Source: Polyangiaceae bacterium
GTDB lineage: Bacteria; Myxococcota_A; Polyangia; Polyangiales; Polyangiaceae
DNA: 64,000 bases
NCBI GenBank assembly: GCA_019637295.1
Contig: JAHBVX010000005.1
Coordinates: 186,001 to 250,000, forward strand
Direction: 5' to 3'
Shown: piece after piece, positions 37,566 through 59,306 of the stretch
Position numbering within the stretch: position 1 is the first letter of the stretch
How the letters are laid out: every line of letters starts with the position of its first letter
Made by a program: the position numbers and the translations under genes
Notes under the pieces: generated by a model
Database searches by the model: none
What the model was told of the DNA's origin: nothing
Seen by the model: the letters and a program-made list of their open reading frames with translations, nothing else

Positions 37566-38945
37566 ATGCGTCGCTTAGCCCTCCTGACCCTCCTCGCCGC
37601 CACCGTCGCCTGCGACAAGAAGAGCGACCCCGCCCCCGCTGGCGGCGATGTGCCGGCGGCCTCCGCCGCGGCGCCGACCGAGCCCCCGGCGAGCGCCGAG
37701 CCTCCGCCCCCGCCACCCCCCAAGGGGCCCGGCCGTCCGCTCAACGTGCTGATGATCACCATCGACAGCTTGCGCGCTGACATGCCCTGGCTCGGCTACG
37801 AGCGCGACATCGCGCCCCACCTCACCAAGCTGGCCAAAGAGAGCACGGTGTACGAGCGTTCTTACTCGCCGTCGTCCTACACGGCGCAGACCGTCGCCGC
37901 GTGGCTGAGTGGTCAATATGCGAGCACCTTGTACCGCGCGGGCTGGTTCTTCGCGGCGTACTCCAAGGCGAACACCTTCTTCCCCACCGTTCTGCAGGAG
38001 AAGGGTATCCGCACCATCGGCTGGCAGGGCCACATGTACTTCGCCCGAGGCAAGGGGCTCGACCAAGGTTTCGACGTCTGGCAGCTCGCCCCCGGCATCC
38101 GCTTCGACCCCAACACGGACAACGAGATCACCAGCGAGAAGATGACCAAGCTCGGCATCGAGCTCCTGGGCAACCCGGAGAACACGGGCAAGCAGTTCTT
38201 CGCGTGGGCCCACTACATGGACCCGCACGATCAGTACAACAAGCACGCGACTTCCCCGGACTTCGGCAACAAGAACCGCGATCGGTACGACAACGAGGTT
38301 CACCACACCGACTTCTGGATCAACGAGCTGTTCGAGTTCTGCCGAAAGCAACCTTGGTGGAAAGACACCGCCGTGATCATCACTGGCGACCATGGCGAAG
38401 CCTTCGGCGAGCACTCGATGTGGAAGCACGCCTTCGAGATCTGGGAGGTGCTCATCCGCGTCCCGCTGATCATCAAGGCGCCCGGCGCCGAGCCGCGACG
38501 CATCAGCGAGCGCCGCTCGACCATCGACCTCGCGCCGACCATCATGGAGCTGATGGGCCAGGAGCCACTCGAGCAGTTTCAAGGCAAGAGCCTGGTCAAG
38601 GAGGTCTATGGCGCGGAGCCTCCGGGCAACCGCGAGCCCATCGTCGCGGAGCTCGCGGAGGACAGCCACAATCCACCCCGGCGCGCCGTGGTTCAGGGCG
38701 ACTACAAGCTGATCGTGTGGGGCAAGGGCTGGAAGTACCTGCTCTTCAACCTGAAGAACGATCCCGAGGAGAAGGAGGAGCTGTCCAAGAAGGAGCCCGA
38801 GAAGCTCGAGGAGATGAAGAAGGTGCTGGACGACGCCTTCGCCAAGCTGCCGTTTCGAGAGCCCTATGGCGGCATGAAGCTCAAGGGCGGCGGCACCGCC
38901 AAGGGCCTCGTGGGTCCGATCAAGAAGCCGGAGCCGAAACCGTGA
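37566..38945 (+). CDS. Sulfatase-fold (alkaline phosphatase superfamily) lipoprotein, first of pair
   Basis: 459 residues from ATG 37566. Lipoprotein signal with LAATVAC, then a Pro/Ala linker, then the alkaline-phosphatase-superfamily domain: NVLMITIDSLRADMPW holds the first metal Asp, and ITGDHGEAFGEH the second metal Asp-His pair. The place of the C/S-x-P-x-R formylglycine motif reads YTAQTVAA, with Thr in the nucleophile position, so it is not a formylglycine sulfatase; LtaS and EptA-type transferases also use Thr. Hydrolase or transferase of phospho- or sulfo-groups in the envelope. Its stop overlaps the next start as GTGA. Confidence 0.85.
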   Translation: MRRLALLTLLAATVACDKKSDPAPAGGDVPAASAAAPTEPPASAEPPPPPPPKGPGRPLNVLMITIDSLRADMPWLGYERDIAPHLTKLAKESTVYERSYSPSSYTAQTVAAWLSGQYASTLYRAGWFFAAYSKANTFFPTVLQEKGIRTIGWQGHMYFARGKGLDQGFDVWQLAPGIRFDPNTDNEITSEKMTKLGIELLGNPENTGKQFFAWAHYMDPHDQYNKHATSPDFGNKNRDRYDNEVHHTDFWINELFEFCRKQPWWKDTAVIITGDHGEAFGEHSMWKHAFEIWEVLIRVPLIIKAPGAEPRRISERRSTIDLAPTIMELMGQEPLEQFQGKSLVKEVYGAEPPGNREPIVAELAEDSHNPPRRAVVQGDYKLIVWGKGWKYLLFNLKNDPEEKEELSKKEPEKLEEMKKVLDDAFAKLPFREPYGGMKLKGGGTAKGLVGPIKKPEPKP

Positions 38946-40294
38946 GGCGCGGCCTCGCCCCGCTCGTCCTGCTGGCGATGGGCTGCGGCGGGCCAGGGGA
39001 GCCCGCGGTCGCGCCGGCCCAACCTGCCGCGTCCCCCCCGCTCGCGCCGGCCGCGCCACCGGTCGCCGCGCCGCCCGCCGAGGTCGCCTCGCCGGCGCCC
39101 GAGCCGAAGCCGCCCGCAGGCCCCTTCAACGTGCTCTTGATCCTGGTGGACAGCATGCGCGCGGACATGCCCTGGGCCGGCTACCCGCGCGCCATCGCCC
39201 CGAACTTGACCAAGCTCGAAGCCGAGAGCGTCAGCTACACGCGCGCCTACTCCACCTCCAGCTACACCGCCAAGAGCGTAGCGGCGCTGCTCGCCGCCCA
39301 GTACCCCTCGAGCCTCAAGCGCAGCGGCTTCTTCTTCACCAAGTACCCCGAGAGCAACCTGTTCATCGCCGAGCTGCTGCAACAGGCCGGGGTGTACACG
39401 GCCAGCGCACATGGCCACATGTACATGAAGCGCGGCAACGGCATGGACCAGGGCTTCGCCGAGTGGGACGTGGTCTCGGGCATCAGCTTCGACAACACCA
39501 CCGATCGCCACGTGACGAGCGACAAGCTCACCGCGCTGGCCATCTCTCAGCTCCAGAAGAAGCCCGAGGGCCAGCGCTTCTTCATGTACTTGCACTACAT
39601 GGATCCCCACGACCAGTACGTGAAGCACAAGGAGTCTCCGGATTTCGGCAATTCGCTCCGAGATCGCTATGACTCGGAGATGTTCTTCACGGATCTGTGG
39701 ATCGGAAAGCTGCTCGAGTGGTGCGCGGGGCAGCCCTGGTGGAAGGACACCGCCATCATGGTCAGCGCCGACCACGGCGAGGCCTTCGGCGAGCACAAGA
39801 TGTATCGCCACGCCTTCGAGCTCTGGAACGTGCTGACCCACGTGCCCATGTTCGTCCGGGTGCCTGGTGCCACGCCGCGACGGATCGACACCCCGCGAGG
39901 CAACATCGATCTGGGCAAGACCACGCTGGAGCTGCACGGCGTGCCCGTGGATCCGCGCTTCGTCGGCGAGAGCCTGGTACCGGAGATCCGCGGCGCCGAT
40001 CCGAAGCCACGGCCGGTGCTGCTGGACCTGCCACCGGACAGCAACAACTCCGAGCGCCGCGCGCTGATCGACGGGGACTACAAGCTGCTGATCTTCGGCA
40101 ATGACTGGAAGTTCTCCCTGTACGACTTGAAGCACGACCCGCAAGAGCGCACGGATCTGGCCAAGAAGGACCCGGCCAAGCTCGCCGAGCTGAAGGAGAC
40201 CTACCGGCGCGTGTGGGACGCCATCCCGAAGGTCAAACCCTACGGCGGCAACAAACTGATGGGCGGCGGCGTCGCCAATGGCCCGATGAACTGA
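38942..40294 (+). CDS. Sulfatase-fold lipoprotein, second of pair
   Basis: 450 residues from GTG 38942, overlapping the previous stop. Short signal RRGLAPLVLLAMGC, Pro/Ala linker, then a close paralogue of the preceding protein: NVLLILVDSMRADMPWAGY, MYLHYMDPHDQYVKHKESPD and VSADHGEAFGEH are shared nearly word for word. The nucleophile region reads YTAKSVAALLA, again Thr and no formylglycine signature. A recent duplication followed by retained coupling suggests both act together, perhaps on two positions of one polymer or as hetero-oligomer. The longer reading into the first gene is another frame. Confidence 0.85.
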   Translation: MRRGLAPLVLLAMGCGGPGEPAVAPAQPAASPPLAPAAPPVAAPPAEVASPAPEPKPPAGPFNVLLILVDSMRADMPWAGYPRAIAPNLTKLEAESVSYTRAYSTSSYTAKSVAALLAAQYPSSLKRSGFFFTKYPESNLFIAELLQQAGVYTASAHGHMYMKRGNGMDQGFAEWDVVSGISFDNTTDRHVTSDKLTALAISQLQKKPEGQRFFMYLHYMDPHDQYVKHKESPDFGNSLRDRYDSEMFFTDLWIGKLLEWCAGQPWWKDTAIMVSADHGEAFGEHKMYRHAFELWNVLTHVPMFVRVPGATPRRIDTPRGNIDLGKTTLELHGVPVDPRFVGESLVPEIRGADPKPRPVLLDLPPDSNNSERRALIDGDYKLLIFGNDWKFSLYDLKHDPQERTDLAKKDPAKLAELKETYRRVWDAIPKVKPYGGNKLMGGGVANGPMN

Positions 40295-49834: not shown

Positions 49835-49890
49835 GCAGGCGGAGCCGGAGGACTCGTGACGGGCCGCCCGAGCCGTCCTATCCTCCGGTC

Positions 49891-51006
49891 ATGCGCCTGA
49901 CTCTCGCCTTACCGTTCGCGCTCTTTGCCTTCGCCTGTTCGTCCGACGATGACTCGCCGAAGGGCGGCACCGGGGGCGGCGCGGGCGCCGGCGGTAGCGC
50001 GGCCTCGGGGGGCCAAGCTGGCTACGGCGGCTCCAGCGGCGGAGCGGCCGGCAGCGGCGGAGCGGCCGGCAGCGGCGGAGCGGCCGGCAGCGGCGGAGCG
50101 GCCGGCAGCGGCGGCGGCTCGTCGGTCCCCACCTTGCTCAGCGAGACCGGCCTCTACTCCGACATCGCGAGCGAGACCCTCGCCCCGGGCGTCGAGTTCT
50201 ATCAACCCGCCCACGTGCTGTGGACGGACGACGCGAGCAAGAAGCGTTGGGCGTTGGTGCCGACTGGAGCCCAGATCGACACGAGCGACATGGACTACTG
50301 GGTGTACCCGGTGGGCACCAAGTTCTTCAAGGAGTTCAGCCGCGACGGCACCCGGGTGGAGACGCGGATGCTGCACAAGACCGCCACGGACAAGTGGGTG
50401 ATGATCGCCTACCAGTGGAACACCGACCAGAAAGACGCCGTCGCGGTGCCGAACGGCGTACAAAACGCCTCGGGCACGCCTCACGACATCCCGAGCACCG
50501 CCGACTGCGACACGTGTCACGGCAAGATGACCGACCGCGGGCTGTCCTTCACCGCGATCCAGCTGTCTCACGGCCTGACGGGTACGAAGCTCAGCGACCT
50601 CATCGCGCAGAACCGGCTGACCCACCCGCCGGCGGGCCACTTCACGCTGCCTGGCACGGCTGCCCAGCAGGCCGCCCTCGGCTACATGCACGCCAACTGC
50701 GGCACGTGTCACAACGACTACTCGTTCGTGTTCTCTCTGGTGGACATGCGCCTCTGGCTCGGGACGGCGAGCCTTTCTACCGTGGCGGACACCTTCACCA
50801 CGAAGACGACCGTCAACAAGCCGCTGACGGCCGCGGGAGCGTCCGCGGGCGCGACGGCGCGCATCGTGCCCGGGGATAGCTCGACCAGCGACGTCTTTCT
50901 GCGCATGAACGAGCGCGGCACCGCCCGTCAGATGCCGCCGCTGGGCACCGAAGACGTGCACGCCGACGGCTCCGCGCTGATCAAAGCCTTCATCGAGTCG
51001 CTGTGA
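49891..51006 (+). CDS. Lipoprotein with two CXXCH motifs (TIGR03806-like)
   Basis: About 371 residues from ATG 49891. Signal ends in LFAFAC, then a Gly/Ser/Ala spacer with four perfect hexapeptide repeats. The domain has the phrases [50 protein letters not shown] and two heme-type motifs, CDTCH (206-210) and CGTCH (270-274). This matches proteins known as TIGR03806-like that are thought to bind c-type heme. Redox role at the surface is inferred. It is convergent with the sulfatase-fold membrane protein 7 bp away. Confidence 0.82.
50041..50112 (+). repeat. Four perfect 18-bp tandem repeats in coding sequence
   Basis: Unit GGAGCGGCCGGCAGCGGC (GAAGSG) is repeated four times without change, in the spacer of the CXXCH lipoprotein. 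Slippage in units of 18 bp would keep the frame. Confidence 0.9.
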
Positions 51007-51013
51007 TCCCCGC

Positions 51014-53206
51014 TCAGCGTTTGGGCTGCAGGCTGAGCTCTGCTTGTTCGCGCAGCTTCAGATCGTCTTTGGTCCGCGGAAACAATGGCGAGCGCACAAG
51101 CTCGGACAGCAACGACAACGTCTCCGCCGGCCGCTCGTCAGCCAGGTTCACCCAGTCCGGATCCGGATCGCGCACGTCGTAGAGCTCCGGCGCGCCCGTC
51201 TCGAGCGGAACGATCAGCTTGTACGGCAGCCCCGGGCGCAGCAGTCCGATGCGAAGCAGCGTCTCGTGGGACGAGCCAGCGAACAGCAGGGGCAGCCGTC
51301 GCGGCGGACGGCCGGGCACCAGATAGCCGAGCAGGTCCTCGCCCTGATACCCGCGGGTGTCGGGCGTGGGGGTGATGTAACGCGCCAAGGTGGGCGCCAG
51401 ATCCACGAGCGACACCTCGTCGTACACCACCTTCGGCTCCACCCCCGGGATCCGCAGCAACAGCGGCACCCGCAGCAGCGACTCCCACAAGAAGATGGAG
51501 TGAACCCAGAACCCGTCACGCCCGAGAGCCTCGCCGTGGTCGCTGACGAATACGACGATCACGTCGTCGCGCATCCCGAGCGAGTCTATGCCCGCCAAGA
51601 ACCGTCCGAATTCGGCGTCGACGGAGCGGGCGACGACCCGGTAGCGCCAGTTCAGCGATGCTTCGTCGGGTACGCCGTAGCGGTCCGCCGTCTCGTGCAT
51701 CCAGGCCGAGTCGAGCTCTCGCCAGTTGTGCTGATCGAAGTTGAACATCCACAGCAAGAAGCGATCACCGCGGCGGACCTTCAGCCAGTCGAGCGCGTGG
51801 TCCACCATCTTGCCGGCGGTTGGCTGGTCCGCGCCGTAACCCCACACGTCGTCCCGATTCGGCTCGTAGTCCCGCACCGTCAGCGCCTCCTGGAACGAGA
51901 AGCTCGGGCGCATCTTGGCCATGAACTCCTGCGCGGACTGCGCTACGGCCACCGCCGTCGTCATGTCGTTCTTCTCGGCCACCCGCAGCAGGTCGTTCTC
52001 GCGCACGCCACCGATCTCGTAGTTTCCGCCGGTGATCGCCGGCAGCGAGCGCATCGTGTCCGAACCGGTGGCGTAGGCTCGGGTGAACGTCACGCTCTCG
52101 CGGGAGAGCCGACTGACGTTGGGCATGATGCTGGGATCCGAGGCCACGTCGTAGCGGAGCGTGTCGACGTAGTAGACGATGATCGACAGGTCCCGGCGCT
52201 CGCCGCGCAGCCGCTCGAGCTTCTGCCGGAAGGCCGGCGGCTCCGCTAGGGGCTCGTCCCAGGCCGGGGACAGGGACGTGGTCGCCAGATCGAAGCGCTC
52301 GCGAAGCTGAACCATGCGCGACATCTCCGCGCCCTGCCAGCCCTGCGGATCGGCCAGGTAGGCCCGCGCCGTCTGCAGCCGACCGAGCACGCGGCCTACG
52401 TAGGCGGGCTCGAGCCAGACGTGCCGAAGCGCCTTGTCCACGGCGCCGTGGGCGGACGGGAGCGTCAGGTAGGCAGCCGACCAGGCGACGGCCACCGCTG
52501 CGATCCCCCGGAGCCAGCGTCCGCGCTCCCGCCCGAACGCGTGGAGCAGGAGCGTCGCGCTGCTGGTCCACACCACGGCCACCGACACCTCGAGCAAGGT
52601 GTGCAGTCGTCCGTACAGCGCCACGTAGACGGTGAGATCGACGTAGGCGAGACCCGCGCCCAGGACCAGCCCCAGGAGCCCCACCGCGACGGCCACCTTG
52701 ATGGCGCCGCGCTCGATGCGACGCCAGCTCCACACGAACAGCAGGTGCGTGACCAGCGCCCCGCATGCGATCACCGCCACCATCAACGTCGGCCCGTGCT
52801 CGGCGAATCGCTCGGCCTGAGCGCCAGAGAAGGTGAAGCGCGCCGTGGGCAGCGCCAGATGGGCGGCCAGCGCCGCGGACGACCCCGCCGCCAGCAGCAG
52901 CGCCCACTTCGGCGAGCGCCGCTCGACGCGTCGCAGGGCGACCTCCAGCGCCCAGGTCACGAGCACGACCGCGAGCGCGACGAGCGCGGCCGTCGCCGCG
53001 TACATGCCGAGCGCGGCGCTCAGGTGACGCCACATCGGGGGCCGGCGCCCCGTCGCACGGCGCACCACGTCAGCGACCAGGAATCCAAGTCCCGTCGCGA
53101 CGGACGCGGTCACGATCAGCGCCGCACGGTCCGCGAGGCGAATTGAGGCCAATTTGCTGAGGGTGGGAGGACTTCTCGCGTGAGAAATCAGGTGTGGGCC
53201 CCTCAA
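51014..53206 (-). CDS. Polytopic sulfatase-fold membrane protein
   Basis: Up to 730 residues from TTG 53206; the start overlaps the upstream stop as TTGA. About six N-terminal TM helices (to residue 250) are followed by a periplasmic alkaline-phosphatase-superfamily domain: LSIIVYYVDTLRYDVASDPS with the first metal Asp and VVFVSDHGEALGRDG the second. Between them TGSDTMRSLPAITGG has Thr in the nucleophile region and no CxPxR, as in phosphoethanolamine or phosphoglycerol transferases. Topology matches LtaS/EptA-like enzymes, so transfer of head groups to an envelope polymer is plausible. It is the third of three coupled genes. Confidence 0.78.
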   Translation of the reverse strand: MRGPHLISHARSPPTLSKLASIRLADRAALIVTASVATGLGFLVADVVRRATGRRPPMWRHLSAALGMYAATAALVALAVVLVTWALEVALRRVERRSPKWALLLAAGSSAALAAHLALPTARFTFSGAQAERFAEHGPTLMVAVIACGALVTHLLFVWSWRRIERGAIKVAVAVGLLGLVLGAGLAYVDLTVYVALYGRLHTLLEVSVAVVWTSSATLLLHAFGRERGRWLRGIAAVAVAWSAAYLTLPSAHGAVDKALRHVWLEPAYVGRVLGRLQTARAYLADPQGWQGAEMSRMVQLRERFDLATTSLSPAWDEPLAEPPAFRQKLERLRGERRDLSIIVYYVDTLRYDVASDPSIMPNVSRLSRESVTFTRAYATGSDTMRSLPAITGGNYEIGGVRENDLLRVAEKNDMTTAVAVAQSAQEFMAKMRPSFSFQEALTVRDYEPNRDDVWGYGADQPTAGKMVDHALDWLKVRRGDRFLLWMFNFDQHNWRELDSAWMHETADRYGVPDEASLNWRYRVVARSVDAEFGRFLAGIDSLGMRDDVIVVFVSDHGEALGRDGFWVHSIFLWESLLRVPLLLRIPGVEPKVVYDEVSLVDLAPTLARYITPTPDTRGYQGEDLLGYLVPGRPPRRLPLLFAGSSHETLLRIGLLRPGLPYKLIVPLETGAPELYDVRDPDPDWVNLADERPAETLSLLSELVRSPLFPRTKDDLKLREQAELSLQPKR

Positions 53207-55176
53207 TAGCAGGAGGGACGAACTGGGAGCGGGTCGGGTTGATTCGTCGGCAAGATCGCCTGCAGATACAGATACTCGTCGTCGCAGAAGACCGCAGGCC
53301 CCTTGCCCTCGAGCTCGGCTCGTTCCGCGAAGGTACGTGCGGCCCCGCCGTCCATCAAGCGATTGGGCAAATCCCCTGGGTTGTGGAAGGCCTCACCCTC
53401 CGGATCAGCCAGGCCGAGCGAGTGCGCGACCTCGTGCGACGTGGTGGTTCCGACCAGTGAGCCGAGCACCCACACCGCACAAGCGATGCGATCCGCGCGG
53501 TTCTTGGCCGGGCAGCGGGAACTCTCGCTGAGCACGGGGATGTTGAGGTCCGCGAGGTCTTCCGCGCGCACCGGGCTGCCGCCGCGGTCGGGCCGAAACG
53601 GATCGAAGATTTGATCGAACAAGGGCGTGGCGACCTCCAGCTTGTCCGCCAGCTTGCCCGGGTGCTCGCTGAAACCGAACAAGCTCTCCACGAACACGCC
53701 CCCGTAGCCGGGCTGGCCTGTCTCTTGGATCGTCTTGGCGTTGACGCCACCGATGCGATCCGCGAGGCGCAGGTTTCCTTTGTCCTTGCCCGGAGTGTTG
53801 TCGTAGCCGAGCAGGCCGTAGCCGTTCGGATCGCCGCCGCCCACTTCCACCAGCGCGAAGAGCGCGAAGTCCGTCGGCTTCTCCAGCCGGAACTCGGCGT
53901 TGACGCCTTGATAGTCCCGGCGCAGCACCTCGAGCACGCGATCCCGAATCCGCTTGTCCACCGCTCGCAAGCCGAAGTGCCGCAAGCTCTCGACGAAGCT
54001 GGGCAGAAACGTGACCTCCACCACCTGCTTGACTGGGACGATCCCGAGCTTGACGTTGGTCGGCACGCCGGTGACCGTCGTTGTGCCGTAGGTGTGGATG
54101 GGCGTCGCGCTGCCGGTGAACTGCCCGGTGACCGCCCGTAGATCGACCAGCTGACCGAGGGCGTCCTGCTCGTTCAAGACGTAGCGCGCTCGCTGCCCCT
54201 CGACGTACTCCAGGATGAGGTCCAGGGACACGCTGCTGCCGGACGGCGCGCCGGTGGGGCTGAAGGTACCCTCGAGCCGTACGGTGGACACCTGGGTCGT
54301 GTCGTCCACCACCAATGGATCCGGGCCGACGAAGCCACCACCATCGATGTTCACGTATTGGCCCAGGCTCGCGCTCTCGGGAGAGAACGAGAAGATCACC
54401 GGCGTGAGCAGCTCCATGTCGACCGGGATCTGCTTGGTCTCGAGCGTCGGGCCGGACTGGGTGATGTCGTTACGCAGCCGGACGGTCCCTGTGAAGCTCC
54501 CCTTCTCGATGCCCGCGATCTTCGGGGCGAACGCGAACTCAGCCTGCTCCCGAGAGAACTCCGAGCGCTGCCGCATGGGGATCTCGACGTCGGGGATGGG
54601 CGTGCAGCCCGTCTGCCCCTGCTTCTGAAAGCATCCCTCGAGGATCGCGACGGTCCGGCCCTCCCCGCCGCCGAGCAGCAGGTTGTTCCCTTCGACGGTG
54701 ATCCAATCGTTCACGAAGACGTTGCCCTCGTACACGCCGAACAGCTTCGGCTCGATGCTGGTGGCCACCGCGAAGGTCACGTCGCGAGGGAGCGACAGGT
54801 GGGTGCGGCCGTCGATGGGTCCGGTGGCCAGCACCCGCAGCGTGCCGGTGAACGCCCCGTCGTTGGCCGGTAGGCCCGCGCCAACTCCACCCTTCCAATC
54901 GAGCTCGACGCGGCCCTCGGGCGTGAGCTGGGCGGGCAACAGCAGCTTCACGGGCTGACCATCGAAGCTACCCAGGAGCTCTACGAACGGCACCGTCACG
55001 TCGCCGAAGGTGCCCGTGACCACGAGCCGCGAGCCGGGTAGGAGCGTGGACGGATAGGCCCCAGACACGCTCAGATCCGTGAGTGAGCTCGGCCCCCGAT
55101 CCTCACGCGGATCGGCGCCGCAGGCATGCAGCAGCACGAGGCTCGCGAGCAGCACCAGGCGCGCGGCCCGGGTCAT
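53203..55176 (-). CDS. Metzincin-like lipoprotein with IPT-like domains
   Basis: About 657 residues from ATG 55176, which overlaps the upstream stop as ATGA. Signal ends in LVLLHAC. The N-terminal 350 residues are beta-rich with repeated Ser-Gly-x-Tyr-Pro-Ser-type and FSFSPESASLGQYVNIDGGGF segments resembling IPT/TIG folds. The C-terminal part carries HEVAHSLGLAD (581-591), the HExxHxxGxxD form of the zinc motif, followed by FHNPGDLPNRLMDGG, a likely Met-turn. A surface metalloprotease is proposed. The third zinc ligand is Asp, as in snapalysin, not His. No propeptide or secretion partner is seen. Confidence 0.75.
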   Translation of the reverse strand: MTRAARLVLLASLVLLHACGADPREDRGPSSLTDLSVSGAYPSTLLPGSRLVVTGTFGDVTVPFVELLGSFDGQPVKLLLPAQLTPEGRVELDWKGGVGAGLPANDGAFTGTLRVLATGPIDGRTHLSLPRDVTFAVATSIEPKLFGVYEGNVFVNDWITVEGNNLLLGGGEGRTVAILEGCFQKQGQTGCTPIPDVEIPMRQRSEFSREQAEFAFAPKIAGIEKGSFTGTVRLRNDITQSGPTLETKQIPVDMELLTPVIFSFSPESASLGQYVNIDGGGFVGPDPLVVDDTTQVSTVRLEGTFSPTGAPSGSSVSLDLILEYVEGQRARYVLNEQDALGQLVDLRAVTGQFTGSATPIHTYGTTTVTGVPTNVKLGIVPVKQVVEVTFLPSFVESLRHFGLRAVDKRIRDRVLEVLRRDYQGVNAEFRLEKPTDFALFALVEVGGGDPNGYGLLGYDNTPGKDKGNLRLADRIGGVNAKTIQETGQPGYGGVFVESLFGFSEHPGKLADKLEVATPLFDQIFDPFRPDRGGSPVRAEDLADLNIPVLSESSRCPAKNRADRIACAVWVLGSLVGTTTSHEVAHSLGLADPEGEAFHNPGDLPNRLMDGGAARTFAERAELEGKGPAVFCDDEYLYLQAILPTNQPDPLPVRPSCY

Positions 55177-57287
55177 GGCGGCGGGCACCCGTTCGTCGTC
55201 TTGCTGCTGCTGGTGTAGTCGATGCAGAGGTCGTAGCCGTTCTGGGAGCCTTCCCAGCCGTGGACCACGACGTAGTAGTTGCCCGTGGTCGGGATCTGGA
55301 AGCTGAGCTTCTCGTTCGAGCTGCCGCTCTGGCCGTTGCTGGAGTCGCAGTCCCAGATCGTGTCGGGCGTGCAGCCGACGAGCAACGCTCCGGTTGGCCC
55401 TCGCAGGTAGAGATCGAGATCCTGGCTCGAGTTGGTCTGGGTGAACTTGGCCGTGGCGTGCAGGGTCTCGTCCTTGACCATGAACACCTCGAAGAAGTCG
55501 TCGTTACCCGAGCAGATCATCAGCGCGTTCCGCTTGTAGGCGGCGGCGCTCACGTCGGCGTCGGTGGCCTGCGACGTGCTGTTGTTGGGTTCCAGGTTGT
55601 CGTCGCTGCAGGAGGAGCATGCGCCCAAGTTCGACCAGCTCAGGGTGTAGCTCGAGTCCGCGTCCAAGAACTCCCACACGGCGATGTAGTAGCGGCCCGG
55701 ATCGACGCACGCCTCGAAGGTCTCGTTGGACGTGGGCCCTGCGGAGCTGGCTACCAGCGCGTTGCTGGAGTCCCGCAGATACAGGTTGAGGTTGCTGCCT
55801 GGGGTGCTCGACGTGAGCGTGACCTTGACCTTGCTCTTGGTGTTGATCTGGATCGGATAGTAGTCGTCGTTCCAGTCTTTGGCCGAGCAGCTCTTCAAGC
55901 TGTAGGTGCCCGGCGGCAGCGCCGGCGCGGTGGCCACCTGGGCGATGGTGTCGTTCGGCTCGTATTGGTCGTCGACGCACTGACCGCCGCTGGAAGCCTC
56001 ACAGCTCTGGGAGTTGGGAATGCACTGGCGGGAGCTGGCCCCGCTGACGCTGGCCACCGGGGTCGGGGAGCAGCTGTAGCCGCTGGGACAGTCGCTGGCG
56101 CCGCTGCACGCCTTCCCGCAGTGGTTCTTGCCTCCGAGGGTGATGCAGGTGTCGGCGCCGCCGCCGCACTGCACGTCGCTCGAGCACGCCTTGCAGGGCC
56201 CGAGGTTGCCGGCGCCGCCCGGGTTGGTGACCGTCATCTGGTGCATGCCGGTCGCGGGTGAGTAGGTGACGTGATCGCAGTCGCCTTGGTCGTCATCGTC
56301 GTCGTTGGCCACGATGCGGTAGTAGAGCGTCGCGCTCGAACCCGCGGCCTGGTTCGCGACGGGGTTCGGGATGTCCGCCGCCCAGGTTCCGCTGGTCAGA
56401 TCCCCGTCGATCTGGAGCATCGTCACCTGCGTGAGCGTGGACGGATCCGGGGCCGCCCCAGGGTTCGTCAGCGCGTACTGCACCAGGGGCTTGAACTTGA
56501 GACCCTTGTCGTCACTGATGTGCGCGTCGATGGTCAGGTCCACGATCGTCGCCTCGTTCGACGGCTGATGCACGACCACCGGGGGGTCGCCCGGACAGTC
56601 GCCCTTGCTCTGCTTCTGCAGGACAATCAGGTAGTCCTTCAGGACCTTGGGGTTCTCGTAGTCATGCGCGGAGAGCACCACCTTGTAGATGTCCTTGGCC
56701 GCGATCTGCTCGGCCGTGGGGCACCACTCCCACACGCCCTCGTGGCCGCCGGTCTGCTGCACGCTGGAGCCCTCGATGAGGGGCGGCTCCTGCGCCAGAC
56801 TCACGTCGGAGGTGTCCGAGTCCTGCACCTCGATCGGGATCTGGATGCACTTCTTCAGACTCAGGTCGAGGGTGGTGCCGGTACCGAGGGGCTGAATGAA
56901 CAGCGGCGCCGTCGCCGACCCGACGGCCGAACGCACGTCGACGTTCACGGTGCGCTTGGCCTCGGCTTGCCCGTCCGAGACGACGAAATCCACGCTCTGC
57001 TGTCCGAGGTCCGCCGCGATGGGCGTCCAGCGGAAGACCGCGTTGCCCGCGGGTCCCTTCTGGAGCGTCGCGCGGTCGCTGATGTTGCCCCCACTATAGC
57101 GGTACTTGAACGTCAGCGGATCGCCGTCCGGATCCCTCGCGATGATGGCCACCGTCAGTTCCTGGCCGACCGCTACGGTCTGGTCGCTGATGGGTTCGAT
57201 GATGGGCTTCTGGTTGTCGTCCGACGAGCACGCGCCCATCGTGGCCAAACCACCTGCAAGCCAGCACAAGCTCAGAAAGCGCCTCAT
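55173..57287 (-). CDS. Lipoprotein with Ig-like and PPC-like domains
   Basis: 704 residues from ATG 57287. Signal MRRFLSLCWLAGGLATMGAC. Residues 25-120 contain a cadherin/Ig-like module (VAVGQELTVAIIARDPDGDPLTF). A second beta region spans 210-350. A Cys-rich spacer of about 70 residues holds 14 Cys (CKACSSDVQC, CSGASDCPSGYSC). Two PPC-like domains follow, each starting DxxEPNNT-like (DDQYEPNDTIAQVATAPAL; DDNLEPNNSTSQATDADV) and ending with a ...GYDLCIDY strand. PPC domains are common on secreted proteases. First gene of the three-gene coupled set; 170 bp from the divergent papain-like gene. Confidence 0.8.
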   Translation of the reverse strand: MRRFLSLCWLAGGLATMGACSSDDNQKPIIEPISDQTVAVGQELTVAIIARDPDGDPLTFKYRYSGGNISDRATLQKGPAGNAVFRWTPIAADLGQQSVDFVVSDGQAEAKRTVNVDVRSAVGSATAPLFIQPLGTGTTLDLSLKKCIQIPIEVQDSDTSDVSLAQEPPLIEGSSVQQTGGHEGVWEWCPTAEQIAAKDIYKVVLSAHDYENPKVLKDYLIVLQKQSKGDCPGDPPVVVHQPSNEATIVDLTIDAHISDDKGLKFKPLVQYALTNPGAAPDPSTLTQVTMLQIDGDLTSGTWAADIPNPVANQAAGSSATLYYRIVANDDDDDQGDCDHVTYSPATGMHQMTVTNPGGAGNLGPCKACSSDVQCGGGADTCITLGGKNHCGKACSGASDCPSGYSCSPTPVASVSGASSRQCIPNSQSCEASSGGQCVDDQYEPNDTIAQVATAPALPPGTYSLKSCSAKDWNDDYYPIQINTKSKVKVTLTSSTPGSNLNLYLRDSSNALVASSAGPTSNETFEACVDPGRYYIAVWEFLDADSSYTLSWSNLGACSSCSDDNLEPNNSTSQATDADVSAAAYKRNALMICSGNDDFFEVFMVKDETLHATAKFTQTNSSQDLDLYLRGPTGALLVGCTPDTIWDCDSSNGQSGSSNEKLSFQIPTTGNYYVVVHGWEGSQNGYDLCIDYTSSSKTTNGCPPP

Positions 57288-57361
57288 GAAAGTTCCCTTT
57301 AGTCGGCAAGTCTAGGGCGAACGCCAGGTCGAAGCAGCCAACATCGGCAGAATCGACGCTC

Positions 57362-57384
57362 GGCCGGCGTATCAGCAGCCGGCC
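57362..57384. promoter_or_regulatory. Inverted repeat in divergent region
   Basis: GGCCGGC (57362-57368) and GCCGGCC (57378-57384) are perfect reverse complements around 9 nt. It lies in the 171-bp gap between the PPC lipoprotein and the papain-like protease; a smaller CCGGA/TCCGG repeat lies at 57407-57419. Confidence 0.35.
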
Positions 57385-57418
57385 AATGGATTACTCTTGC
57401 ACCTATCCGGATCTTCCG

Positions 57419-57448
57419 GTAGGTCACTGTAAGTTGCTGTAGGTAAAG
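57419..57448 (+). repeat. Three imperfect 10-bp direct repeats before protease start
   Basis: GTAGGTCACT, GTAAGTTGCT and GTAGGTAAAG follow one another at 10-bp steps, ending 10 bp before ATG 57459. GTA at the same place in each and near-helical phase suggest an operator. An AAAGAGG Shine-Dalgarno lies in the last copy. Confidence 0.35.
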
Positions 57449-57458
57449 AGGCTACCCC

Positions 57459-59306
57459 ATGACCCGTCTAGCTATCCTGTCCCTCCCGGTCCTCGCGCTC
57501 TCCCTCGGCTGTTCGGGCACGGACGACGGCGGCGGGCCGGCGGGGAGCTTCGACAACGACTTCCCGCTCTCGGACGTCGACGCGCTGTTTCAGGACGCGC
57601 CCACCAACGCGAAGCTCGACGAGCTCGGCAAGGCCGACGCGGTGTACCCCAAGCAGTTCTTCGAACTGGTGCCCCAGCAGTCACCGGTGCGAAACCAGGC
57701 GAGCCGCGGCGTGTGCTCCATCTTCGCCGCTCTCGGTCTGGTCGAGCACCTCTACATCAAGGAAGGCACCGTCACCAGCCCGGACTTCTCCGAGCAGTAC
57801 CTGCAGTGGTCGGTCAAGGCGCAGGTTGGCGCGTTCACCTACACGGAAGGGTCGAGCTCCCAGAAGAACCTCGAGGCCGTGAGCCGCTTCGGCGTCGTGG
57901 ACGAGACCGAGTGGCCCTACCAGACGACCCGCTGGAACTCGAGCAACGACCCGGCCTGCGTCGGCGGCGAGTCCCAGCCGATCCAGTGCTACACCAACGG
58001 TAGCCCGCCCGAGAGCGCGCTCGCGGCGAAGAAGTGGTTCATCCCGGCCGGGCGCTACGTCAACTCGCGCACCTCCAGCGTCAAGGCGTTCATGACGTCG
58101 AAGAAGCAAGCCGTCACCGTCGGCTTGTCGTTCTTCTATCAGTCCTGGAACCACGGCGGCTCGACCCTGCCGGTCAGCGCGGACATGTCGCGCAAGGGCT
58201 TCGTGCCCTACCCCAACGCCAAAGATCGCGAAGAGAGCCAGAAGAAGCCGGCCGGTCACGCCATCCTGATCGTCGGCTGGGACGACGACGCCGAGATCGC
58301 GCCGCTCGACGCCGAAGGCAACCCGCTGCCCGAGAAGGAGAAGGGTTTCTGGATCATCAAGAACAGCTGGGGCAGCGCCAAGTTCGGCGTGGAGAACCCG
58401 CACGGGGCTGGCTACGGCTACCTGTCCTACAAGTACGTCGAACAGTACGGCACCGTGTACGGCAGCGATCTGCCCAAGCTCGAGCCGGCCGTCGAGCTGT
58501 GCAACGACGGCAAAGACAACGATGGCGACGGCAAGGTCGACTGCGAGGACAGCGACTGTTCCGCCGACGCGGCCTGCACCGGCACCGGCAACACCTACAG
58601 CGCCTCGCCGGGTGTCTCCATCCCGGACAACAACAGCACCGGCGTGTCGAGCAGCATCACGGTGCCCACCGGCGGCACGCTGTCCGCGGTCACCGTCGGC
58701 GTGGACATCACTCACCCCTTCCGCGGGGACTTGCACGTCAAGCTCGTGCGCGACGGTGGTGGCGAGGTCGTGCTGCACGATCGTGACGGCGGCAGCGCCA
58801 AGGATCTGAAGAAGACCTACTCGGTCACCGCGTTCGACGGCCAAGACGCCGCGGGCGTCTGGACGCTGGTGGTCAGCGACCGGGCTGCCGCGGACGTCGG
58901 CAAGCTCAACTCCTGGACGCTCGACGTGACCACCTGCGCGAGCTGCGGTGATGGCGCGCAGACCTACTCGAACAGCAGCAGCCAGGGCATCCCCGACAAC
59001 AACTCCAGCGGCATCCAGAGCGACATCTCGGTGCCGGAAGCCGGCAAGATCAAGGCGCTGAACGTGACGGTGAACATCAACCACCCCGCGAAAGGCGACC
59101 TGACCATCGCGCTGCAGAAGCTTGGCCTGTCCGACGCTGTGCTCGTGGAAGCCGACGCGGCCGACGGCGCCTTCGGGACCCGCACCTTCAGCGTGCCCAC
59201 CTTCATCGGCGAAGAAGGGGCGGGCACCTGGCGCCTCGTGGTCAAGGACGTGCTCGCCGGAGACGTCGGCACGCTGCAGAGCTGGAGCTTGGAGATCAAG
59301 CGCTGA
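57459..59306 (+). CDS. Papain-like (C1A) protease lipoprotein with two P-domain-like modules
   Basis: 615 residues from ATG 57459. Signal MTRLAILSLPVLALSLGC. Papain domain: Gln80 and Cys86 in VRNQASRGVCSIFAALG, His267 in PAGHAILIVGWDD, Asn302 in WIIKNSWGS, that is the complete Gln-Cys-His-Asn set. A short acidic Cys-containing linker with DNDGDGKVDCEDSDC resembles a calcium loop. Two similar C-terminal modules (SIPDNNSTGVSSSITVPTGG and GIPDNNSSGIQSDISVPEAG, each ending WxLVVxD) resemble proprotein-convertase P-domains. A surface cysteine protease is strongly suggested. It is divergent from the three-gene run that contains the metzincin-like lipoprotein. Confidence 0.88.
   Translation: MTRLAILSLPVLALSLGCSGTDDGGGPAGSFDNDFPLSDVDALFQDAPTNAKLDELGKADAVYPKQFFELVPQQSPVRNQASRGVCSIFAALGLVEHLYIKEGTVTSPDFSEQYLQWSVKAQVGAFTYTEGSSSQKNLEAVSRFGVVDETEWPYQTTRWNSSNDPACVGGESQPIQCYTNGSPPESALAAKKWFIPAGRYVNSRTSSVKAFMTSKKQAVTVGLSFFYQSWNHGGSTLPVSADMSRKGFVPYPNAKDREESQKKPAGHAILIVGWDDDAEIAPLDAEGNPLPEKEKGFWIIKNSWGSAKFGVENPHGAGYGYLSYKYVEQYGTVYGSDLPKLEPAVELCNDGKDNDGDGKVDCEDSDCSADAACTGTGNTYSASPGVSIPDNNSTGVSSSITVPTGGTLSAVTVGVDITHPFRGDLHVKLVRDGGGEVVLHDRDGGSAKDLKKTYSVTAFDGQDAAGVWTLVVSDRAAADVGKLNSWTLDVTTCASCGDGAQTYSNSSSQGIPDNNSSGIQSDISVPEAGKIKALNVTVNINHPAKGDLTIALQKLGLSDAVLVEADAADGAFGTRTFSVPTFIGEEGAGTWRLVVKDVLAGDVGTLQSWSLEIKR

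Follow-up and report, generated by a model that had tools for sequence, protein, structure and literature searches.

A co-inherited set of putative surface lipoproteins in Myxococcota that includes a probable new metzincin family

Introduction

Metzincins such as the adamalysins/reprolysins, archaemetzincins and matrixins share an HExxHxxG helix and a Met-turn methionine, and usually two residues separate the motif glycine from the third histidine. Here we analyse a 64,000-nucleotide stretch of DNA from a Polyangiaceae bacterium (the window, to which all positions refer unless another contig or locus is named), in which genes for a PPC-domain lipoprotein, a zinc-protease lipoprotein and a sulfatase-fold membrane enzyme lie next to a divergent gene for a papain-like lipoprotein. 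The zinc protease resembles the metzincin clan in the helix, in the methionine and in its superposition on PDB entries 2aig and 3lmc. It differs in that 7-15 residues lie between Gly and the proposed third His in the window protein and its relatives, in an extra block (GPDPNG ... YDNTPGKD ... GGVF), and in the absence of any Pfam or NCBIfam match for the window protein, its relatives matching weakly. According to the available part of one report, leishmanolysin (M8) has an insertion of 62 residues after the motif Gly and ahead of the third His and keeps its active-site geometry (PMC5572447). The insertion stands at the same place as here, whereas the whole spacer here amounts to 7-15 residues and varies.

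A metzincin with a lipoprotein partner has a described counterpart in the Listeria mtz-tim pair, where a secreted metzincin cleaves and releases its paired lipoprotein, as stated in the available part of the source (PMC8235301). The two systems have in common that a metzincin gene and a lipoprotein gene are conserved as a pair. As far as that part of the source describes it, the Listeria partner is TIMP-like, of phage origin and from a Gram-positive bacterium, whereas here both proteins are lipoprotein-like, the partner is a PPC/Ig protein and a papain is present in addition.

The papain-like protein shares its C1 family and its surface location with the cell-surface cysteine protease of PDB entry 4d59, which we take to be Cwp84; the match is, however, limited to residues 260-306 (E 1.9e-4), and the protein here has two C-terminal proprotein-convertase P-domains. 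The sulfatase-fold enzyme is built like LapC/YejM, EptA and LtaS, with N-terminal hydrophobic segments followed by a sulfatase-fold domain, but its NCBIfam scores lie far under the cut-offs. Thr in the nucleophile position is common to these three and the enzyme of the window. A literature search, most subscription journals being outside its coverage, found no description of the zinc-protease family or of the papain/PPC/metzincin set.

Results and discussion

The three lipoproteins are co-inherited

The zinc protein was found in 17 of 59 relatives. Long PPC matches (E ≤ 2.5e-56) occurred in 15 of the 59 and papain matches that include the protease domain (E ≤ 4.2e-155) in 14, in both cases entirely within the 17 zinc-protease carriers. 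Five more relatives had short PPC-domain matches only, and in 23 others the papain was matched weakly (E ≥ 1.7e-24), mainly through its acidic repeat or P-domains; a few of these matches fell on part of the protease domain. The comparison was also kept inside family f1 (37 genomes, 9 zinc-protease carriers), which limits shared ancestry as an explanation. The result showed that the PPC protein was present in 9/9 carriers and 0/28 non-carriers (hypergeometric p 8.0e-9) and the papain in 6/9 and 0/28 (3.6e-5). For F12, another lipoprotein family, the figures were 7/9 and 4/28 (9.0e-4).

At the level of the phylum, the search covered 377 genomes of Myxococcota, among which 235 reach a completeness of 90% or more with contamination of 5% or less. 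Three profiles were used at E ≤ 1e-20, one for the zinc domain (A3), one for the protease domain of the papain (A5) and one for the N-terminal portion of the PPC protein (A6). This limit was set after the list had been viewed, and it excluded 27 of the 131 genomes in which the zinc domain is matched at E ≤ 0.001; for PPC, papain and F12, 1e-20 was the sole limit used. The zinc protease was found in 104 genomes, the PPC protein in 90 and the papain in 66. Zinc protease and PPC protein occurred together in 82 genomes, PPC protein and papain in 58, and all three in 56, while 63 of the 66 papain genomes also carried the zinc protease. The three papain genomes without it were G143, G188 and G232, the last two of which are 86 and 77% complete and PPC-positive; the PPC protein occurred without it in 8 genomes. 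In a rough check by family, 16 families had zinc protease and papain, 10 the zinc protease only, 1 the papain only and at least 10 neither, the last figure being a minimum taken from the families named in the search lists (Fisher p 0.004). These data give statistical support to the PPC lipoprotein, the zinc protease and the papain as a co-inherited set across Myxococcota, often partly clustered.

Gene order

A PPC gene lies within 6 kb of the zinc domain in 50 of the 377 genomes, and on the same strand in 46. The PPC stop codon overlaps a possible zinc-protease start as NTGA in 10 of the 13 same-strand pairs read closely. Among four further distinct pairs, the overlap was found in L123 and L127 and not in L138, L142 being undecided (L139, which duplicates the locus L026, is not included). 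So frequent a four-base overlap suggests matched synthesis of the PPC protein and the metzincin. In the window, the ATGA overlap reported in the initial annotation, which was made from the sequence alone, is found with the internal ATG at 55176 as start of the zinc protein, a choice that is plausible and recurs in relatives, but not with the longer open reading frame (ORF) of 53203-55188.

The papain gene stands beside the PPC gene in 10 genomes, divergently in seven of family f1, co-directionally in G067 and G090, and convergently in G188. In G067 (locus L123), of the same phylum and of family f30, the papain, PPC and zinc-protease genes run in one direction, a possible PPC start lies 19 bases past the papain stop codon, and the PPC/zinc overlap is GTGA; the same three-gene order and strand were found in G090, of the same genus as G067. 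In G247 the papain gene adjoins the zinc-protease gene rather than the PPC gene. On contig C3 of G188 the papain and PPC genes are neighbours and a zinc protease was not found, an absence that is uncertain because the assembly is incomplete.

A proposed surface protease set and its main alternative

We read the locus, at a probability of about 0.53, as a conserved cell-surface proteolytic module of Myxococcota that would comprise a PPC/Ig lipoprotein, a metzincin lipoprotein and a papain-like lipoprotein with P-domains. Several points weigh against this reading. The Fisher p values of the phylum-wide overlaps (3e-52 for zinc protease and PPC protein, 1e-39 for zinc protease and papain, 5e-36 for PPC protein and papain) ignore phylogeny. 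The genome searches scored the best 3-6 candidates per genome, so that misses are possible, and the papain is missing from 41 of the 104 zinc-protease carriers. The genes from which the PPC profile was built lie near the zinc protease, and such genes are therefore easier to detect. In 15 of 20 loci fetched for diversity, some of them cut by contig ends, there was no PPC gene near the zinc protease, and a Foldseek search with the C-terminal domain of the zinc protein gave no match at E ≤ 0.001 (best E 0.019). Two further points, the overlap of the control family F12 with the zinc protease and the distance between the two protease genes, bear directly on the alternative that best survives.

According to that alternative, the three proteins are independent secreted digestive enzymes or adhesins kept by the same lineages or lifestyles, and the PPC/zinc operon is the only functional link among them. 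F12, likewise a secreted lipoprotein family and of similar prevalence (79/377 genomes), overlaps with the zinc protease in 56 of its 79 genomes, so that part of the co-occurrence signal reflects lifestyle or ancestry. Moreover, the papain and zinc-protease genes lie within 6 kb of each other in only 10 of the 63 genomes that have both; in the other 53 no such proximity was found, although contig breaks can hide some. However, the papain is nested in zinc-protease carriers more tightly than F12 (63/66 against 56/79), in family f1 it is confined to carriers, and two distant lineages have it next to the pair, in differing arrangements. We regard independent enzymes as a serious competing explanation with a chance of roughly one in three.

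If the proteins do form a surface protease module, the PPC and metzincin lipoproteins would probably be made from one transcript, with the papain transcribed divergently at the window locus. Signal peptides with lipoboxes, judged by eye, point to lipoproteins in all three cases, and the proteins would be lipidated, probably in the outer membrane. Co-inheritance and the analogy with the Listeria pair, as far as the available part of its source goes, suggest that the PPC lipoprotein is a cognate partner of the metzincin, which it could serve as anchor, restraint or substrate. Because the papain is almost wholly nested in metzincin carriers, it may need the metzincin as its activator, its substrate or the next step. 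It would then share a pathway with the metzincin, which it could, for instance, activate or whose cleavage of surface or prey proteins it could extend. We infer a partnership of the PPC protein, metzincin and papain from genome comparison. That the papain depends on a new metzincin with a dedicated PPC partner, and that the set constitutes a surface protease cascade of two catalytic classes, zinc and cysteine, in Myxococcota, is a tentative proposal and, as a whole, less likely than not to hold.

If the module reading is correct, 104 of 377 sampled Myxococcota genomes encode a widespread and undescribed metzincin family, and its zinc site offers a test of how far the third ligand may be displaced. 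A three-part surface protease set would then be named and open to study by gene removal, with the membrane enzyme to be left out.

The sulfatase-fold enzyme is not part of the set

The sulfatase-fold protein matched Sulfatase PF00884 with 75.8 bits against a cut-off of 25, whereas the NCBIfam EptA, LtaS and YejM models reached 12.9-20.1 bits against cut-offs of 500-1200 (YejM 20.1 against 825). D348, T384, D556, H557 and H569 were invariant in an 11-row alignment of 10 distinct sequences, the window protein being present twice, and Thr384 is likely to be the nucleophile. As a superfamily the enzyme matched all 59 relatives, and full-length orthologues (E ≤ 2.5e-72; next genome 6.9e-28) were found in 11, namely in 6 of the 17 zinc-protease carriers and 5 of the 42 non-carriers. 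In the loci read around the zinc protease, some of which are short, the gene adjoins the PPC/zinc pair in two genomes only, that of the window and G001, which belongs to the same genus.

One reading in the initial annotation was that the sulfatase-fold, transferase-like enzyme acts together with the proteases as an envelope-modification system. The gene does adjoin the pair both in the window and in the relative of the same genus, and within family f1 there is a weak association with the zinc protease (6/9 carriers against 5/28 non-carriers, hypergeometric p 0.011). Against this, 5 of the 11 orthologue genomes have no zinc protease, and the synteny of PPC, zinc-protease and sulfatase genes that the annotation had named as support, if conserved across genera, was not found in the loci read. 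The TTGA overlap that it described between the zinc-protease and sulfatase genes is present in the sequence, but in the same-genus relative the two genes are separated by 62 bases even with the most upstream ORF start. Since, in addition, the TTG at codon 19 of the sulfatase-fold ORF is an alternative possible start, translational coupling to the sulfatase is not established. We consider the envelope-modification system quite improbable.

The annotation had itself named separate occurrence of the three genes in relatives as speaking against the trio, and the sulfatase orthologues do occur apart from the zinc protease. Membership of the enzyme was rejected on distribution and synteny, by which it is an incidental local neighbour, and on the comparison of genomes the unit is to be redrawn as papain, PPC protein and metzincin. 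What stands of the proposed unit is the zinc protease, the cysteine protease and the PPC lipoprotein, co-inherited and often partly clustered, but not the head-group-transferase-like enzyme.

Two further sulfatase-fold matches lie about 11-13 kb away, at about 38361-38756 and 39032-40198 on the plus strand (E 1.2e-16 and 4.5e-20 to P0001). The lipoprotein encoded at about 49888-51006 (+) contains a diheme cytochrome c domain (138.6 bits with TIGR03806, for which the cut-off is 313), and its gene adjoins the sulfatase gene in the same-genus relative too.

Zinc site of the metzincin-like lipoprotein

The sequence HEVAHSLGLAD is literally present in the zinc protein of the window, and it had been annotated as an HExxHxxGxxD site. 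In an alignment of 51 domains (A4), HExxH with Gly three residues on was found in 51/51, which bears out conservation of the zinc motif in homologues, and H206, E207, H210, G213, H223 and M233 of the domain (585, 586, 589, 592, 602 and 612 of the protein) were invariant. The Asp reading did not hold up. The position was D in 17 domains, N in 12, Q in 6, A in 6 and another residue in 10, and a third ligand at Gly+3 is not general, since His stands there in only 2 domains besides the 17 with Asp. The spacer from the motif Gly to the conserved later His ranged over 7-15 residues, whereas that from this His to the Met-turn Met was nine residues in 48 domains (H602-M612 included) and eight in 3. 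The rest of the domains were left out of A4, being the same locus under another identifier or, by choice, close relatives of included rows; the rows of the domain search that were left out also carry the zinc motif. L037 and L038 were excluded from the alignments as their frames ran past the gene or through a stop, and in both the zinc motif and the later His are present; the partial L027 is in alignment A1 and absent from A3 and A4.

Because the later His and Met are invariant, leishmanolysin sets a precedent for an insertion at this place, and Asp-zincins are described, in the available part of one source, as having no Met-turn (PMC3890501), His602 is probably the third zinc ligand and would complete the site in place of the usual one, and the zinc protease probably represents a new metzincin-clan family with a displaced third ligand. 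That the site is a canonical HExxHxxGxxD one with another role for the conserved His agrees with the window sequence itself, but is the least probable alternative and hardly credible, given the variable Asp, the His in 51/51 domains at a nearly fixed distance from the Met, and a Met-turn of the kind that Asp-zincins are said to lack; Asp as the zinc ligand was accordingly rejected.

Fold of the zinc protease

At E ≤ 0.1 neither Pfam nor NCBIfam contained a family matching the zinc protein, and by sequence no solved structure matched it at E ≤ 1. Close relatives of it are found in records labelled Myxococcales, Polyangiaceae, Polyangia, Kofleriaceae or uncultured delta proteobacterium. An AlphaFold2 model of the full protein had a predicted local distance difference test score (pLDDT) of 84.6. 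Its Ig-like part matched plexin A1 IPT3-IPT6 with Z 8.1 and a root-mean-square deviation (rmsd) of 11.1 over 259 residues, a value at which the similarity is that of a chain of domains only. Since the fold search with the whole model in effect probed the Ig-like part only, the C-terminal domain was refolded alone from 51 sequences, with pLDDT 95.1 and a predicted template modelling score (pTM) of 0.93. The structure prediction that the initial annotation had suggested for this domain thus gave a confident metzincin-like model containing the zinc site.

The best solved match of this model was the archaeal zinc peptidase 3lmc (Z 10.1, 3.0 Å over 141 residues), equalled in Z by adamalysin II, 2aig (Z 10.1, 3.6 Å over 152 residues), and, judged by title, each of the best 50 matches is a peptidase of the metzincin type or a pseudo-enzyme, with Z 8.4-10.1 and an rmsd of 3.0-4.9 over 132-164 residues. 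The domain profile, compared with the sequences of solved structures, gave ADAM33 (E 0.0024) and adamalysin (E 0.012) as its best matches, both weak and around the HExxH helix. The window domain matched none of the Pfam metzincin families (Reprolysin, M10, M66, DUF4953, M8) at E ≤ 1. Other members matched many metzincin families weakly (up to 34/51 members; best E per named family 0.00025-0.24), M8 being matched by 2/51 members with a best E of 0.24.

The extra block, GxDPNGxGLLGYDNTPGKDxGN ... GYGGVF, occupies domain residues 72-120 (window 53692-53838) and perhaps binds metal; its D74, D90 and N93 are invariant in the 51 sequences. No relative of the zinc domain that would indicate a mobile origin was found in viral contigs or plasmids, a phage record collection being outside the search. 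Two or three zinc-domain matches per genome occur in G145, G333, G336, G362, G386 and others, and in L128 and L129 zinc-domain copies adjoin each other.

The papain-like and PPC lipoproteins

The papain-like protein matched Peptidase_C1 with 44.3 bits against the Pfam cut-off of 20.7, and two P_proprotein stretches correspond to the two P-domain-like modules already noted in the annotation; its acidic double-disulfide repeat scored 34.5 bits, under the cut-off of 41. The catalytic Gln-Cys-His-Asn set is complete, as had been claimed, with Q80, C86, H267 and N302 invariant in 10 aligned sequences. For the PPC protein, Pfam matches were Big_9 plus two PPC stretches, and a catalytic domain was not found in the domain search. 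Across 17 aligned N-terminal parts, eleven of its Cys never vary, and a twelfth is almost invariant.

Coordinates of the locus

The source genome comprises 7.65 Mb in 25 contigs. The four-gene layout originally described was borne out, with all ORFs and the claimed residues in place, and the ORF coordinates also agree with the divergent papain gene lying 171 bp away (Table 1). Lipoboxes were judged by eye and membrane helices were taken from a simple hydropathy scan.

Table 1. Features of the locus, in window positions
Feature	Position	Strand	Basis or remark
Sulfatase-fold (alkaline phosphatase superfamily) polytopic enzyme P0001	51014..53206	-	genus-level neighbour, outside conserved set
Metzincin-like lipoprotein P0002, probable ATG start 55176, lipobox LHAC (by eye)	53203..55176	-	alignment of 22
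C-terminal metzincin-fold catalytic domain, residues 380-661	53206..54051	-	structure model and fold search
M612, Met-turn methionine	53353..53355	-	invariant in 51/51
Zinc site H585-E586-x2-H589-x2-G592 ... H602 (proposed third ligand)	53383..53436	-	51-domain alignment
Ig-like (IPT/TIG-like) domains, three by our reading, residues 34-384	54037..55089	-	AlphaFold2 model
ATGA overlap, PPC stop / zinc-protease start	55173..55176		
PPC lipoprotein P0003: lipobox MGAC (by eye), Big_9 Ig-like, Cys-rich stretch, two PPC stretches	55173..57287	-	
Divergent intergenic region between PPC and papain genes, 171 bases	57288..57458		
Papain-like (C1) lipoprotein P0004, acidic double-disulfide repeat and two P-domains	57459..59306	+	

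F12 and other neighbours

In the main part of the F12 lipoproteins, which has no Pfam match, Glu149-Cys150 and His306 are invariant, and some members carry a C-terminal PPC domain; F12 is possibly a Cys-His enzyme. Copies lie at G000:C1:941820-943526 (the source genome, outside the window), L033:13721-15466, L031:4736-6904 and L024:10048-12213. The F12 gene adjoins the PPC gene in two genomes read (G016 and G017) and is beside or near the PPC/zinc genes in some. As a fourth member of the set F12 was rejected, its association being looser (12/17 carriers against 4/42 non-carriers among the relatives, besides the phylum overlap given above), and for that reason it was kept as a control and a lead.

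Directly after the PPC/zinc-protease pair of L025, at L025:9370-11532, a transglutaminase-elicitor domain (PF16683) is fused to P-domains; a relationship of F12 to this protein was rejected, as hhalign showed no similarity. At L022:3136-5100 a gene for a PAS hybrid histidine kinase lies between the PPC and zinc-protease genes.

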